Assembly: GCA_030154225.1 (NCBI GenBank)
Contig: JASKKI010000015.1
Location: 1-39,835, forward strand
Source of the DNA: Clostridia bacterium
Lineage (GTDB): Bacteria > Bacillota > Peptococcia > Peptococcales > BICA1-8
Reading direction: 5' to 3'
Length of the DNA: 39,835 nt
Shown: positions 1-24,985 of the stretch, piece after piece
How the letters are laid out: the number at the start of each line of letters is the position of its first letter
How positions within the stretch are numbered: the stretch's first letter is position 1
The notes under the pieces: generated by a model
Told to the model about the DNA's origin: nothing
The model's database searches: none
What the model saw: the letters and a program-made list of their open reading frames with translations, nothing else
Position numbers and translations under genes: made by a program

Positions 1-439
1 ACCTCCTGTATGTTTGGAGTAGACACCTAAATCATACATGATTTCTCACTATGGTTGTTTATTTTTTTACATGCATTTTACCTGTTGCATTTAATTTTAT
101 AATGAACCTTTTTTAAAATTTTTTATAAAAATTATCAGATAGTATAAATTCTTTTAAAATGTCTAATGACCTGCTAGTATAAAAGAAAAAGGCTTGCTTA
201 AACTTTCTATATCAGAGTACGATTAAATATACTTGGCGAAGTTATGTTAGAAAAAATACAGACAGGAAGTCTGCATCAAGGTTCACTGAATAATAGACGG
301 TGAATTGAACTTGTTCTTTTTTTCTTCGTTACGAGCCTTAGAGTATTATGTGCGTAGATCTTGAAAAACAAAGCATCCATTCTTTTTCTTTAAAAAATTA
401 TAGGCTGTTGACTTTGTCAAAAGTTTGAATAATTTTTTA

Positions 440-559
440 TTAAGAAAAATCGACTTCGACGGTCTTTCAGAACCTACAGTAGTTACAGTGCTACAGGGAA
501 TAAAAGATTAAGATTGAAGGTTAGCCCAAAAGCTATACTTTTTTTTAACGTTAAAAAAG
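440..559 (-). repeat. Dispersed intergenic element, copy 1 (about 120 bp, abuts parS)
   Basis: 440-512 (TTAAGAAAAATCGACTTCGACGGTCTTTCAGAACCTACAGTAGTTACAGTGCTACAGGGAATAAAAGATTAAG) matches the reverse complement of 22733-22804 at roughly 65/73 positions by hand alignment; both copies also share CTTTTTTAACGTTAAA at the other end. Confidence 0.85.
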
Positions 560-575
560 TGTTTCACGTGAAACA
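560..575. promoter_or_regulatory. parS: parS site
   Basis: Exact 16-bp palindrome TGTTTCACGTGAAACA, identical to the consensus Firmicutes parS, next to parB. Confidence 0.97.
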
Positions 576-585
576 CTTAAAAATT

Positions 586-1446
586 TTAAATATCTATTAA
601 TTCTAAAATCCTTTGTAAATCATCATGATTATAATATTCAATTTCAATCTTTCCTTTTTTACCATCATCTTTTATATTAACTTTTGTACTGAATCTATTA
701 CGTAATCTATCCTGAATATCATTTAAAATAGGAGATAGGGTGGATGCTTTACCTGTTTTGTTTTTAACAGCCGACTTTTTTAGTGATTTTTTTATTAAAT
801 TTTCTGTTTCCCTTACAGATAAACCATTATCAATAATTTGTTTAACTAACTGTAGTTGTAAAGATTGATTTTCAATGGAAAGTAATGGACGAGCATGACC
901 AACAGTCAGAACCCCCTTTGCCAAATAATCGTGAATTAATTCTGGTAAATGTAATATTCTTAGATAATTTGCAATAAAAGGACGAGATTTACCAACCTTT
1001 TTAGCGACCTCTTCCTGTGTTAAACCAAATTCTTCAATAAGTTTTTTATAAGCTTTAGCTTCTTCTATAGGATTTAAATCATGTCTTTGAATATTTTCAA
1101 TTAACGCCATTTCAGTCATATCACGATCTGATAAGGCTCTAATAACAGCAGGGATTTTTTCTAAACCTAATTGTTTACATGCTCTTAATCGCCTTTCTCC
1201 AACAACTAATTCATATCCTTCAGAATGAGGTCTAACTATAACTGGTTGAATTACACCATGTTCTTTTATAGAAGCAGCTAATTCTGATAATTTATCAGGA
1301 TCAAAATTTTTTCTAGGTTGGAAAGAATTGGGTAAAATTTCATGAATATTTAATTCGCTTATAGTATCTTTATCGGGATCATATTGAACCGGATTTGTAG
1401 TGGGAATTAATGCACCAAGTCCTTTTCCAAGACCTCTTTTACTCAT
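586..1446 (-). CDS. parB: Chromosome partitioning protein ParB (Spo0J)
   Basis: MSKRGLGKGLGALIP N-terminus, ParB/RepB motif GERRLRACKQLG, HTH; overlaps parA stop by 4 nt; parS adjacent. Confidence 0.97.
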   Translation of the reverse strand: MSKRGLGKGLGALIPTTNPVQYDPDKDTISELNIHEILPNSFQPRKNFDPDKLSELAASIKEHGVIQPVIVRPHSEGYELVVGERRLRACKQLGLEKIPAVIRALSDRDMTEMALIENIQRHDLNPIEEAKAYKKLIEEFGLTQEEVAKKVGKSRPFIANYLRILHLPELIHDYLAKGVLTVGHARPLLSIENQSLQLQLVKQIIDNGLSVRETENLIKKSLKKSAVKNKTGKASTLSPILNDIQDRLRNRFSTKVNIKDDGKKGKIEIEYYNHDDLQRILELIDI

Positions 1447-2680: not shown

Positions 2681-3532
2681 TTATTTAGCAACATTATGTT
2701 TGTTTTTAGGTAATCTAATGGTTACTTCTAAATAATCGTCATATTCATTTTCTGTAATATCTGCAGGAAGACCTGCATCCTGAATAGTTTGAACAGCACC
2801 TCTAATAGTATTAAGAAAAATACGCATATCTTTAAATATTTTAGTCATCTTGCGTTTCATTTTTTCTTTAGCAACTTTTTCATTATTAATTAGTAATTGT
2901 TCAACTAATTCATCAGTTTGTCTTACATTTAAATTATTAATATAAATTTCATTTAATGCTTTCAATTGTAATTTTTCATTATTTAATTTAAGTAAAGCTC
3001 TGGCATGTCTTTCAGTAATAACGTTTACAGAAATCTCTCTTTGAACAGTAGGGGATAGATTTAATAATCTTAATTTATTAGCAATTGTAGATTGACTTTT
3101 ACCAACCCTTTTAGCAACTTCATCCTGGGTAATACCAAATTCTTTAATTAGTTTTGCATAACCTTCTGCCTCTTCAAAATAATTCAAATCTTCCCTCTGA
3201 AGATTTTCAATTAAAGCCATTTCTGCAATTTCTTTATCACTCAGATTTCTAATTATGGCAGGTATAGTTTGTAAACCTAATAACTGGCTAGCTCTAAATC
3301 TTCGTTCACCGGCAACAAGTTCATAACCCGTTCCAATTTTACGAACTATAATAGGCTGTAAAACACCAAACTCTTTAATTGATTGAGCTAACTCTTCTAA
3401 TTGTGCTGGATCAAAAACTCTTCTGGGTTGAAAAGGATTAGGAGTTATTAAAGATAAATCTAAATGTTTTATTTCATTTTTATCTATATCTTGTGTAATA
3501 CCAAATATTTTAGATATATGATCTTTCATCAA
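2681..3532 (-). CDS. noc: Nucleoid occlusion protein Noc (ParB paralogue)
   Basis: ParB-like fold plus MKDHISKIFGI N-terminus resembling the Noc amphipathic helix; canonical position between rsmG and parA. Confidence 0.92.
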   Translation of the reverse strand: MMKDHISKIFGITQDIDKNEIKHLDLSLITPNPFQPRRVFDPAQLEELAQSIKEFGVLQPIIVRKIGTGYELVAGERRFRASQLLGLQTIPAIIRNLSDKEIAEMALIENLQREDLNYFEEAEGYAKLIKEFGITQDEVAKRVGKSQSTIANKLRLLNLSPTVQREISVNVITERHARALLKLNNEKLQLKALNEIYINNLNVRQTDELVEQLLINNEKVAKEKMKRKMTKIFKDMRIFLNTIRGAVQTIQDAGLPADITENEYDDYLEVTIRLPKNKHNVAK

Positions 3533-10424: not shown

Positions 10425-11771
10425 ATGCTTAAATCACAACTTTCCCATATCTGGAAAGAAACACTGCAACTATTAGAAAAAGATCTCAGTAAACCAAGTT
10501 TTGAAACCTGGTTTAAATCAACAGAGTTAATAGCCTATTATGATGATTATCTAATCATTAGTACTCCTAATGAATTTGCAAAAGATTGGTTACAAAACCG
10601 TTATATAGATTTAATTAAATCTAAATTGCAATCACTTTTAAATCATTCGGTTAATTTAAAATTTGTAGTTGCACAGCAAAAAGAAGAAGAGATCCAAAAA
10701 ATTAAAGAAAATAAAGTAAGTAACATTAAAAATAATGAAGATTATACTGGTAATCATTTAAATCCAAAATATACTTTCGATACTTTTGTTGTAGGTAATA
10801 GTAATAGATTTGCCCATGCAGCTTCGTTAGCAGTAGCCGAATCAGTAGCTAAAGCCTATAACCCTTTATTTATCTATGGAGGGGTTGGATTAGGAAAAAC
10901 TCATCTTATGCATGCCATTGGTCATTATGTTATAGAAACAAATAAAAATGCAAAAGTTGTTTATGTCTCATCAGAGAAATTTACTAATGAATTAATAGAT
11001 GGTATTAGAGATGATAAAACAACCGATTTCCGTAATAAATATAGAAATATTGATGTTTTATTAATAGATGATATTCAATTTTTAGCAAAAAAAGAAAGAA
11101 CACAAGAAGAATTTTTCCATACATTTAATGCTTTGTATGAAGCTAACAGACAAATAATTATATCCAGTGACCGTCCACCTAAAGAAATTCCTACCCTTGA
11201 AGACCGTTTAAGGACTAGATTTGAATGGGGTTTAATTACTGATATTCAACCACCAGATTTAGAAACAAGGATAGCTATTTTAAGAAAAAAAGCCCAAATG
11301 GAAAACATTGATGTAGATAATGAAGTGATGTTATACATAGCCGATAAAATTCAATCAAATATTAGAGAATTAGAAGGAGCTTTAATAAGGGTAATAGCAT
11401 ATTCTTCATTAAATAATAACGAAATAACTTTGGATTTAGCTATTGAAGCATTAAAAGATATTATACCTGCTAATAAACCCAGACCTATTACACCAGAACT
11501 TATTCAGGAAAAAGTATCGGAAATATTTTCTCTCAAAGTAGAAGAACTAAAAGCAAAGAAAAGAACAAAAAGTGTTGCATTTCCACGACAAATTGCTATG
11601 TATTTATGTCGAGAATTGACAGATTTATCTTTACCTAAAATAGGAGATATATTTGGAGGTAGAGACCACACAACGGTAATCCATGCCTGTGAAAAAATTT
11701 CTTCAGAAATGTTAAAAGACCCATCTATCCAAGAAACAATAAACAAAATAAAAGAGAGACTACATAGTTAA
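10425..11771 (+). CDS. dnaA: Chromosomal replication initiator DnaA
   Basis: [56 protein letters not shown]. Confidence 0.99.
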
Positions 11772-17950: not shown

Positions 17951-20383
17951 GTGGAGAATTTCACCCATGGTAAAATTTTACCTATAAAAATTGAAGATGA
18001 AATGCAAAAATCTTATATAGATTATGCAATGAGTGTTATTGTCGGGCGAGCTCTTCCTGATGTTAGGGACGGTTTAAAACCTGTTCATAGACGTATTCTT
18101 TACTCCATGTATAAAACGGGAATGACTCCGGACAAGCCTTATAAAAAGTCAGCACACGTTGTTGGTGACGTTTTAGCTAAATATCATCCTCATGGAGATA
18201 GTGCAGTATATGATGCAATGGTCCGGATGGCCCAGCCTTTTTCTACTCGTTATCCTTTAGTTGATGGTCATGGTAATTTTGGTTCCGTTGATGGCGATTC
18301 CGCTGCAGCCATGCGTTATACAGAGGTAAGAATGTCTAAACTGGCAACTGAACTATTATCTGACATTGAAAAAAATACAATTGATTATATTCCTAACTAT
18401 GATGAATCTCTGGAAGAACCTATTGTTTTACCTTCAAGGTACCCTAATTTATTAGTAAATGGATCTTCCGGAATAGCTGTTGGTATGGCTACCAATATTC
18501 CACCCCATAACCTAGGAGAAGTAATTAATGGTGTAATTGCTCTCATCGATAACCCAAATATTACAAGTAAAGAATTGATGAAAATTGTTAAAGGACCTGA
18601 TTTTCCCACTGGCGGTATTATTATGGGTAAAAAAGGTATTAAACAGGCGTATGAAACAGGACGGGGTGTAGTTAGAGTCAGAGCTAAAACCCAAATTGAA
18701 AAAATGAATAACGGTAAAATGAGGATCGTGGCTACCGAAATACCCTATCTGGTCAACAAAGCTAGATTAATTGAAAAAATTGCCGAACTGGTAAGGGATA
18801 AGAAAATTGATGGTATAACTGATTTAAGGGATGAATCTGATCGTTCGGGAATGAGAATTGTTATTGAATTGAGAAGGGATGTTAACCCCCAGGTTATCCT
18901 GAACCAGTTATATAAAAATACCCAGTTACAGGAAACCTTTGGTGTTATTATGCTAGCCTTAGTTGATGGTGAGCCTAAGGTTTTAAGTTTAAAAGAAGTA
19001 TTATTTTATTATTTAGAACATCAAAAAGATGTTGTAGTGCGCAGGACCAAATATGAATTAAACAAAGCAGAAGAAAGGGCTCATATTGTTGAAGGTTTAA
19101 GGATAGCTTTAAACAATCTAGATGAAGTTATTAAAACTATTAGGCAGTCTAGAACAACGGAAGAAGCTAGGACCAATTTAATGACTAAATTCGGCCTTAG
19201 TGAAAAACAAGCTCAGGCCATTTTGGACATGCGTTTGCAAAAGCTTACCGGATTAGAAAGGGAAAAATTAGAGGAAGAATATAAAATTTTAATGGAAAAA
19301 ATTGAATATTATCGAAGTGTATTAGCAGATGAAACAATGGTTTACGATATTATTAAAGAAGAAATAAGTATTATTAAGGAAAAATATACTGATGAAAGAA
19401 GAACAGAAATAAGTCTTTCTGATGATAAACTGGAAATGGAAGATTTAATAGCGGACGAAGATGTAGTAATTACTATCAGTCATAATGGATATATAAAAAG
19501 AATGCCCATTGATACCTATAAGAGCCAGCGGCGGGGTGGAAAAGGCATTACCGCAATGACAACAAAGGGTGAAGACTTTGTTGAGCAGTTATTCATAACT
19601 ACTACCCATAATTATTTACTTTTCTTTACTAATAAAGGTAAAGTATACAGGATAAAAGTATATGAAATACCTGAATCGGGAAGACAATCAAAAGGTACAG
19701 CAATAGTTAATCTTCTTTACATCAATGGTGATGAACAGATAACAACGGTAATACCAGTTAAAGAATATACTGATGGCTGGTACCTGTTAGCTGCAACCCA
19801 GAAAGGTATAGTCAAAAAAACATATTTAAGTGAATATGATACTTCCCGTAAAGATGGTATTATTGCCATTACTTTAGATGAAGATGATGAGTTAATGGGA
19901 GTACAATTGACAGATGGTAAACAGGATGTAATTTTGGTTACAAAAGAAGGTATGGCAATTCGCTTTAATGAACAGGATGTTCGACCAATGGGTAGGACAG
20001 CCCGTGGTGTTAGAGGAATAAATCTTGGTAATACTGATATTGTTGTTGGTATGGATATTGTAAGGGATAATGCTCAACTTCTGGTAATTACCGACAAAGG
20101 ATATGGAAAGCGAACTCCACTTGATGAGTATAGAACCCAAACCAGGGGCGGAAAGGGTATTATTACTTTACGCACTACACCCAGAAACGGTAAACTGGTA
20201 GGAACTAAAGTAGTAAAAGAAGGAGAAGAAATAATGATAATTTCTAAAGAAGGTATAATCATCAGATTAAAAGTTGATGATATATCTTCAATGAGTCGTA
20301 CTACCCAGGGAGTTCTTATTATGAGAGTAGGAGAAGATGATAGTGTTGTTGCCGTGGCTAGGGTAGTTGCTGATGATAATTAA
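17951..20383 (+). CDS. gyrA: DNA gyrase subunit A
   Basis: [33 protein letters not shown]; gyrA-box QRRGGKG. Confidence 0.99.
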
Positions 20384-21470: not shown

Positions 21471-22670
21471 ATGAACGTATTGGTAATCAATTGTGGTAGT
21501 TCTTCATTAAAGTACCAACTCTTTGATATGACCAATGAGAGTGTATTGGCTAAAGGGTTGGTTGAAAGAATAGGTTTGGAAGGGGCAAAACTTTCCCATC
21601 GTCCCGCAAAAAAAGACAAGTATGAAGTTGAGACAGAAATTCCTAATCATGAAAAAGCCATCGAGCTGGTATTAAAAGCACTGGTAGACTCGGAACATGG
21701 TGTTATTGACAGTATGGAAAAAATTAATGCTATCGGTCATAGAGTTGTTCACGGTGGCGAGGATTTTTCAGGTTCAGTTTTTATTGATGAAAAAGTTATG
21801 AAAGCATTAAACGACAATATTTCTCTAGCTCCATTACACAATCCTCCTAACATCATGGGCATTGAAGCTTGTAAGAAGTTAATGCCCAATGTTCCCCAAG
21901 TAGGTGTATTTGATACAGCATTTCATCAAACTATACCTAAACATGCATTTTTATACGGTATACCATATGAATATTACCAAAAATATAAGATTCGCAAATA
22001 TGGTTTCCATGGGACATCCCATAAATATGTAGCCCAGAGAGCTGCAGCTATGTTAAGAACACCATTAGAAAAATTAAAACTAATTACATGTCATTTGGGC
22101 AATGGTGCCAGTATTTGTGCTGTAGAAGGTGGTAAATCAGTAGAAACAAGTATGGGTTTTACTCCCCTTGAGGGATTAATGATGGGTACCCGTTCTGGAG
22201 ATATAGACCCAGCTATCGTTTCTTATTTAATGGAAAAAGAAGGTTGGTCTATGGAAGAAGCTACCGATTTCTTTAATAAACGTTGTGGAGTTTTAGGTAT
22301 TTCCGGTGTAAGTAGTGATTTCCGTGATATTGAAAGTGCTGCCGATGAAGGAAATGAAAGGGCACAATTGGCATTGGAAAGATTTGCCCATATGGTTAAA
22401 AAATACATTGGATCTTATGTAGCAATAATGAATGGTGTTGATGCCATTGTATTTACAGCAGGTTTGGGAGAAAATTCTGCTGAAATGCGTTATGAAATAT
22501 GTAAAAGTTTAACCTATCTAGGATTGGAAATTGACAGGGATAAAAACTTTACCAGAGGTGTTGAAGCAGACGTTTCTACCGATGATTCCAAGGTCAGGGT
22601 ACTGGTTATTCCAACAAATGAAGAATTAATGATTGCTAGGGATACTTATGATATAGTTACAAAATTATAG
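21471..22670 (+). CDS. ackA: Acetate kinase
   Basis: [42 protein letters not shown]. Confidence 0.99.
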
Positions 22671-22680
22671 ATTATTAAAA

Positions 22681-22709
22681 AGCTAGCCATTTTAAAGGCT
22701 AGCTTTTTT
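22681..22709 (+). terminator. Intrinsic terminator of ackA
   Basis: AGCTAGCC-attttaaa-GGCTAGCT then TTTTTT. Confidence 0.85.
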
Positions 22710-22804
22710 AACGTTAAAGAAATGAAGTGAAACCTAATCTTTTATTTCCTGTAGCACGGTAGCACTGTAGGTTCTGAAAGACCGACGAAGTCAGTTTTTC
22801 TTAA
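22703..22804 (+). repeat. Dispersed intergenic element, copy 2 (about 102 bp)
   Basis: CTTTTTTAACGTTAAAG...CCTAATCTTTTATTTCCTGTAGCACGGTAGCACTGTAGGTTCTGAAAGACCGACGAAGTCAGTTTTTCTTAA; reverse-complement homologue of 440-559. Confidence 0.85.
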
Positions 22805-23499: not shown

Positions 23500-23753
23500 T
23501 GTTATAAAACACAATGAAGGGGAACAAGTACTTTAAAAAACTATTACAGAGAGTTGGTGGCAGGTGGAAACCAACAGGGGTTTTTAGAGGAAATTCCGCC
23601 CTGGAGTGGGGTATGATGAATACAACCGGTTAACACGTCCGTTATCGTGTAATTGAGAGGGGTAATAGTATTTTCTTACTATTATTCAATTTGGGTGGCA
23701 ACACGGGTTATGAAGCTCGTCCCTGTAGTTTTACTGCATGGGCGGGCTTTTTT
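23500..23753 (+). promoter_or_regulatory. T-box riboswitch leader, probably tRNA-Ser responsive
   Basis: Stem I elements (CAAGTA, AGAGAG, GGTGG, CCTGGAGT), T-box AATTTGGGTGGCAACACGGG (23688-23707) and terminator AGCTCGTCCCTG...CATGGGCGGGCTTTTTT. Confidence 0.93.
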
Positions 23754-23818: not shown

Positions 23819-24985
23819 ATGTATGAAAAACAATTATTGTTAATACCAGGTCCGACTATGATTCCTCCAAGAGTACTTAGAGCCATGAGTGTTCCTCCTA
23901 TGGGACACCGTTCCCAGAAATTTAGCCAGGTTGTCAAAGAAGTATCTGAAAATCTGAAAAAAGTATTTCAAACCAAAAATGATGTATATATTTTAACTGC
24001 ATCCGGTACAGGAGCTATGGAAGCAGCTGTTACTAACTTTGTTAATCCTGGAGATAAGGTTTTAGTGCTGGTAAATGGTAAATTTGGTGATCGGTTTGCT
24101 AAAATAAATAAACGTTATGGTGTGGAAGTAATCAGAAAAGATTTTGAACTGGGTAAACCTGCCGATCCTAAAATTGTGAAAGAAATCCTTTTAGAAGATA
24201 AAGGGCAGGAAATAAAAGCTGTTTTTGTTCAGCAAAATGAAACTTCTACCGGGATATTAAATAATATTAAGGCAATCAAGGAGGCAATGGCTGACCATCC
24301 GGCTTTGTTGATAGTAGATAGTATTTCCGGTATGGCTGTTGCTAATTTTCCGGTAGATGAATGGGGTGCAGATGTTGTAGTAGCAGGTTCACAAAAGGCA
24401 TTTATGTTACCACCGGGATTAGCTTTTATTTCTGTGAGTGAAAAAGCCTGGAAGGTTAATGAAACCTGTAAAAACTATAATTTTTATTTTGACCTACAGG
24501 CAGCCCGCAAAAATTTAACTAAAGATACAACACCTTTTACTCCGGCAACAGCTTTGATTTTAGGATTGAAAGAATCTTTGAATATTATTCTAAACGAGGG
24601 TTTAGAAAATATTTATAAAAAACAAGAGAAGTTTAAAGAAATGGTCAGGGAAGCAGTAAAAGCTTTATGTTTAGAGTTATTAGTTAAAGATGAGAAGTCA
24701 GCTTCTCCAGCTATTACAGCTATAAAAGTTCCGGATAATATCCAATGGAAAGATTTAAACAATATTTTATTAAATGACTTTAATGTACAAATAGCAGGTG
24801 GTCAGGATGATTTAAAAGGTAAAATATTTAGAATTGGTCATATCGGTTATGTTCAAGATATGGATTTATTAACTGCAGTAGCTGCATTGGAAATGGCCTT
24901 GTATAAATTAGGTTTTATTAAAGAACTAGGAATAGGTGTCAAAGCTTGTCAACAGGTAATTTTAAAACATAAGGAGGAAGCATAA
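23819..24985 (+). CDS. Class V PLP aminotransferase (alanine/serine-glyoxylate type; candidate phosphoserine transaminase)
   Basis: LLIPGPTMIPPRVLRAM, MGHRSQKF, VVAGSQKAFMLPPGLAF; directly upstream of serA. Confidence 0.9.
   Translation: MYEKQLLLIPGPTMIPPRVLRAMSVPPMGHRSQKFSQVVKEVSENLKKVFQTKNDVYILTASGTGAMEAAVTNFVNPGDKVLVLVNGKFGDRFAKINKRYGVEVIRKDFELGKPADPKIVKEILLEDKGQEIKAVFVQQNETSTGILNNIKAIKEAMADHPALLIVDSISGMAVANFPVDEWGADVVVAGSQKAFMLPPGLAFISVSEKAWKVNETCKNYNFYFDLQAARKNLTKDTTPFTPATALILGLKESLNIILNEGLENIYKKQEKFKEMVREAVKALCLELLVKDEKSASPAITAIKVPDNIQWKDLNNILLNDFNVQIAGGQDDLKGKIFRIGHIGYVQDMDLLTAVAALEMALYKLGFIKELGIGVKACQQVILKHKEEA

Follow-up and report, generated by a model that had tools for sequence, protein, structure and literature searches.

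A modular interspersed repeat beside intrinsic terminators in a Clostridia bacterium

The window analyzed here, a stretch of 39,835 nucleotides from a Clostridia bacterium, carries two copies of a repeat of about 115 bp that recurs throughout the genome, with one edge of the repeat placed beside transcription terminators. We infer both mobility and a terminator role for this repeat, and the reading that we favor, with some reservation, is a non-autonomous small interspersed repeat of modular build, preferentially inserted or kept beside intrinsic terminators and probably serving as a backup terminator. Small interspersed repeats are a known kind of element, but this lineage-specific family is placed with unusual strictness, next to a terminator and in fixed orientation.

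Copies and anatomy of the repeat

The original prediction described a dispersed intergenic element of roughly 100-120 bp with 8-bp units, based on the likeness between positions 440-512 and the reverse complement of 22733-22804. This likeness was reproduced, with 93% identity between the inverted arms 440-480 and 22764-22804 and 88% between 484-515 and 22730-22761. We then used window positions 430-580 as a BLAST query against the organism's own draft genome (G000; 2.68 Mb in 126 contigs), which returned copies in the tens, with E-values as low as 1e-36. A profile based on sequence alone and trained on 35 copies gave 48 matches in the same genome, 36 of them strong (E < 1e-18); the training copies match this profile by construction, and the BLAST result is independent of it. 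Together, these counts exclude chance and show that this is not a two-copy repeat. The copies have a median pairwise identity of 90%, and several pairs are identical across their shared length. Contigs C27, C29, C30, C67 and C116 of G000 have ends that fall inside repeat copies. The true copy number is therefore probably higher, and such copies can mislead assembly and binning.

The repeat is about 115-125 bp long. Alignment of the copies gave a consensus of about 115 bp, consisting of the repeat's own terminator-like hairpin, four units of 8-9 bp and an A+T-rich tail, in the order TAAGAAAAACCGACTTCGTCGGTCTTTCAGAAC, CTACAGTAG-CTACAGTG-CTACCGTG-CTACAGGA, AATAAAAGATTAAGATTGAAGGTTAGCCCAAAAGTTATACTTTCTTTAA. 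The two copies in the window have the following parts:

441-552, plus strand: copy 1 of the repeat, sharply conserved over about 441-549 (BLAST, profile match G000:C6:441-556, alignment)
445-467, plus strand: own terminator-like hairpin of copy 1, consensus AAAAACCGACTTCGTCGGTCTTT, with a stem that has decayed in this copy
474-498, plus strand: tandem 8-9 bp units CTACAGTAG/TTACAGTG/CTACAGGG of copy 1, which lacks CTACCGTG (alignment; family-wide octamer pattern)
499-549, plus strand: A+T-rich tail of copy 1, AATAAAAGATTAAGATTGAAGGTTAGCCCAAAAGCTATAC followed by a T-run (alignment)
22710-22803, minus strand: copy 2 of the repeat, without the CTACAGTAG unit and with the middle of the tail replaced (BLAST, profile, alignment)
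22777-22799, minus strand: own hairpin of copy 2 (sequence, alignment)
22747-22770, minus strand: tandem units CTACAGTG/CTACCGTG/CTACAGGA of copy 2 (sequence, octamer search)

The repeat is non-coding, as predicted from the lack of an open reading frame. Three tandem units had been described, and each window copy does have three; the consensus has four, and each copy is short of a different one. The proposed extent of 440-559 also needs adjustment, because the conserved body runs from 441 to about 549-552, and the A-run and palindrome at 553-578 belong to a neighboring terminator.

The 5' edge, TAAGAAAAAC, is sharp and the left flanks are unrelated between copies. At the other end, similarity fades within a few bases 3' of CTTTAA, where the copies pass into an A-run and a hairpin that is particular to the site. 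The left edge TTAAGAAAAA and the reverse complement of the right edge TTAAAGAAAG show an imperfect likeness by eye, which may reflect A-richness. In the alignment, the octamers are the most conserved part of the repeat. Their number varies among G000 copies, with losses that are mostly exact octamers, and the tail is shortened or replaced in several copies. In copy 2, AGGTTTCACTTCAT stands in place of the middle of the tail and resembles part of a different intergenic repeat of the family.

Terminators at the tail edge and the parS junction

In both window copies, the tail edge adjoins a predicted terminator at the 3' end of a gene that points toward the repeat:

21471-22670, plus strand: ackA open reading frame
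22677-22709, plus strand: ackA intrinsic terminator, AAAAAGCTAGCC..GGCTAGCTTTTTT, adjoined by copy 2 (fold -17.3 kcal/mol)
586-1446, minus strand: parB open reading frame
553-578, minus strand: likely parB terminator adjoined by copy 1, comprising the extended parS palindrome AAGTGTTTCACGTGAAACACTT (557-578, with parS itself at 560-575) and a minus-strand T-run (fold)

The same arrangement was found across the genome. A stem-finder detected an A-run and a stem of at least six pairs at the tail edge of 25 of the 27 copies that reach the tail end; for comparison, it did so at 228 of 2629 intergenic control positions (8.7%) and at 67 of 394 sites (17%) immediately 3' of genes. The comparison is partly circular, with an inflated odds ratio, because the A-run is partly built into the consensus, although this does not apply to the hairpin. 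In nearly all copies the tail-side gene, assigned by a simple ORF-based nearest-gene rule, points toward the repeat, usually across a gap of about 15-80 nt. In the sense of that gene, the gene is followed by the terminator hairpin and T-run, after which come the tail and octamers of the repeat and, last, its own hairpin and own T-run. By eye, copy L004 adjoins the end of an apparent tRNA gene.

In the original prediction, copy 1 directly abuts parS. The palindrome at this junction, AAGTGTTTCACGTGAAACACTT, corresponds to parS with three extra pairs, has a predicted fold of -9.6 kcal/mol and lies past the parB stop at 586, and the extended palindrome plus its T-run is likely to be the parB terminator. 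The parS site that follows parB in relatives G004, G006 and G007 is likewise extended and followed by T's, without the repeat; relatives G003 and G002 have a separate terminator after parB and no repeat there. From these sequences, parS may also act as the terminator of parB in several genomes of the order; such a role would explain why the repeat is located at this site. The idea of a special parS junction was not upheld: the same edge adjoins ordinary terminator hairpins in most of the 25 hairpin-bearing copies, and the relatives' parB-parS junctions lack the element. The contact in copy 1 is one case of the terminator rule, and contact with parS is therefore incidental. Nothing in the copies and relatives' junctions examined points to a functional connection with ParB or Noc, and the tempting link between the repeat and chromosome partition is withdrawn as unsupported.

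Placement of parS directly after parB, with a longer stem and a T-run, was observed at loci L080, L082 and L084 and at 553-586 in the window, in several genomes of the order. The window itself is the oriC region (dnaA at 10425, gyrA at 17951), and both parB (586-1446) and noc (2681-3532) lie near the origin.

The own hairpin, mobility and competing explanations

In the gene sense, which is the minus strand for copy 1, the repeat's own hairpin has the consensus GACCGACGAAGTCGG plus TTTTTCTT, with a predicted folding energy of -14.4 kcal/mol for the consensus and -4.1 kcal/mol for copy 1. This hairpin followed by TTTTTCTTA looks like an intrinsic terminator in its predicted fold. A simple consensus terminator scanner called no terminator in either window copy. 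Changes on both sides that preserve pairing were found at 4 of the 10 pairs of the hairpin, and some of these come from copies L025 and L043, in which the hairpin is formed by a different palindrome of like design.

We propose the following origin for the repeat. One version of a family-wide array of 8-bp units would have become associated with both a terminator-like hairpin and a tail rich in A+T, and the resulting unit of about 115 bp would then have been copied to at least 36 places, with its tail end set beside intrinsic terminators in fixed orientation. Spread would have occurred by insertion that prefers, or survives solely at, a terminator hairpin and T-run, using an enzyme supplied in trans. 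The effect on the host would be mild, with a second terminator limiting read-through into the next gene, and the octamers would be the likeliest candidate site of recognition by the mobilizing or binding protein. Like generic MITEs, the repeat has many copies, is non-coding and is mainly intergenic. Target-site duplications were not detected, as matches between left and right flanks did not exceed those of permuted pairs in length (3.95 observed, 3.96 permuted). No RVT_1 match indicative of reverse transcriptase was found in G000, and no transposase-bearing or longer autonomous copy was seen. One candidate for a longer version, on contig C30, was rejected: a left-like piece and a tail-like piece lie apart there, and the gene between them is an ordinary one (by eye, an endonuclease IV-like ORF) rather than a transposase. 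A bolder version of the proposal is a mechanism that operates without reverse transcriptase and homes on the hairpins of intrinsic terminators, whether in DNA or in nascent RNA, through a lineage-specific enzyme that recognizes the CTACAGTG octamers. We regard this as unlikely; if true, terminator-targeted insertion without a group II intron would represent a safe-haven strategy based on such an enzyme.

Several other explanations were weighed against the favored reading. The octamers could bind a chromosome-organizing or partition protein of the ParB/Noc type, which would make the repeat an architectural site tied to parS. The octamers are the feature most clearly common to different genera as well as the most conserved, and copy 1 does directly adjoin the parS palindrome. 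However, no other copy among those examined touches parS, as the rest contact ordinary terminators; octamer-bearing relatives lack the repeat at their parB-parS junctions, and the unit number ranges from 2 to 6 in G004, so that this explanation is very improbable. A transcribed regulatory or structured RNA, either a 3'-UTR element or an sRNA family selected at gene ends, would account for the fixed orientation to the adjacent gene, and both strands of the consensus fold slightly better than shuffled sequences (z about -2). Yet of the three helices tested, the 5' hairpin alone had both-side changes at two or more pairs, compensatory change was almost lacking in the helices of the octamers and tail, and RNAalifold kept 5 pairs in the consensus structure. 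There was also no Rfam match over the window copies at the gathering score, and the best sub-threshold matches of a permissive search were at chance level. The earlier suggestion of a structured RNA is weakly supported, by a few compensatory changes in the 5' hairpin, and we consider an RNA function quite unlikely. As for the protein-binding element suggested along with it, the octamers may conceivably have such a role.

Movement by a RAYT (Y1 transposase) as a REP-type element is suggested by the repeated GTAG that the gene-sense octamers hold upstream of the hairpin, since one REP super-family carries GTAG as its tag (PMC3733652). G000 encodes one RAYT-like Y1 protein, and G004, the genome richest in octamers, has 19 Y1 matches. 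Against this, the flanks of the RAYT genes examined (L077, L127, L128, L130, L131, L133 and L135) contain no octamer pairs, and the RAYT of G000 is flanked by a different hairpin, GGGGACGGTTCTCGCCTTGCCCC. Moreover, G002 has octamers and no Y1 match, G001 has a Y1 match and no octamers, and the palindrome has no GTAG directly beside it, the nearest being several bases away from the stem. RAYT-driven movement is accordingly a doubtful explanation that we hold at low probability. Local tandem duplication combined with gene conversion between intergenic simple repeats, without true mobility, would fit the abundance of short tandem repeats and mosaics in the family's intergenic regions as well as the loss of mostly exact octamers in G000, but a constant unit of about 115 bp with a sharp 5' edge at no fewer than 25 unrelated loci is hard to obtain through local slippage, and this too seems unlikely. 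The single RAYT-like protein of G000 (277 aa; L077, on contig C90) is itself adjoined by the hairpin repeat GGGGACGGTTCTCGCCTTGCCCC.

Known systems and distribution among genomes

The repeat resembles SPRITE, BOX and BrickBuilt elements in some of its features. Like SPRITE, it is a short A+T-rich interspersed repeat with a terminator-like hairpin, enriched near gene 3' ends and with no demonstrable target duplication (PMC3049150). SPRITE forms a single stem, 18 bp in length, that has a T-rich tract and AAAA/TTTT at its ends (PMC3049150), whereas the repeat has a stem of 5-10 pairs followed by octamers and a tail, and it adjoins a separate host terminator in fixed orientation. The authors of the SPRITE work considered tolerated insertion downstream of genes and co-option as terminators (PMC3049150), and both ideas apply to the repeat as well. 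BOX elements (boxA-boxB-boxC) are also modular, with a central unit that may be absent or multiple, and their published description has boxA and boxC as terminal modules with inverted repeats on either side of the boxB units, as well as target duplications (PMC3049150). For the repeat, no target duplications were detected, and the likeness of its two edges is imperfect. BrickBuilt, a MITE with a minisatellite from Porphyromonas gingivalis, has a leader, tandem units and a tail in about 20 or more intergenic copies; its abstract describes units of 23 nt, in contrast to the 8-9 bp units here, and small inverted-repeat ends, and states no terminator rule (PMC4596501). Group IIC introns insert at intrinsic transcriptional terminators (PMC4424553), which recalls the terminator-like hairpin beside nearly all copies reaching the tail end. 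Such introns are ribozyme retroelements (PMC4424553), and the length of about 115 bp, the lack of reverse transcriptase and the lack of an Rfam match indicate that the repeat is not a group IIC intron. REP sequences, associated with RAYTs in the GTAG and CGTC families, are likewise small, hairpin-bearing intergenic repeats with many copies (PMC3733652), but the repeat has no unpaired tag beside its palindrome and does not adjoin the RAYT genes examined. We found no description of such repeats in the literature searched on related clostridia.

Counts of the double octamer CTACAGTGCTACMG were 28 in G000, 95 in G004, 12 in G003, 8 in G002 and 0 in G001, and it was absent from the 41 other genomes searched in the class. 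The octamer core is present in three of the four other genomes sampled from the same family, with differing flanks, and is nearly confined to that family among the genomes sampled. Three consecutive units were found in 3 of 399 genomes of the phylum, a sample without G004; the three are G000, G003 and a genome from another family, in which the units lie at a contig end. A scan of named genomes recovered the searched form only in Clostridiaceae bacterium BRH_c20a (G004), at a single Microcystis site, where the flanks are unrelated, and at the end of one contig in DJKA51_ANT-F21_bin.18. This contig (L099; JASKKH010000067.1, 6036-6133), binned in another family, breaks off within a copy that matches the G000 consensus exactly. 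The genome of this bin has no second strong copy, so the contig has probably been mis-binned or derives from a close relative of the organism in the window. Profile matches that span the hairpin into the tail were best at 1e-9 in G004 and 9e-9 in G003.

Octamer arrays in G004 contain 2 to 6 units, often with a GCTCATGGGCTATACAGAATGTCAGTG-like module upstream, and follow no orientation rule. A hairpin lies upstream of 32 of 51 arrays in G004, compared with 25% of control positions, and enrichment at the arrays of G003 and G002 was not significant; the controls for the relatives are crude. The octamer is thus found family-wide, and the form of about 115 bp is an expansion specific to this genome. 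With 48 profile matches, a core that is conserved and multi-copy in relatives and no Rfam match, none of these results refutes the original prediction.

At L005, L012, L035, L052, L064 and numerous loci of G004, the family has further dispersed intergenic repeats, namely GGTTAAGGTTTCGCTTCGCTAGGTTAAGG, GATTACACTCCACTTCGTTCCGTTAGATTAAG, GTGACATCGTGTCACC and tandem heptamers (CTATCAA and GTGACTG, for example), and these often adjoin octamer arrays. The window also contains a T-box leader at 23505-23727, upstream of an aminotransferase gene at 23819-24985.
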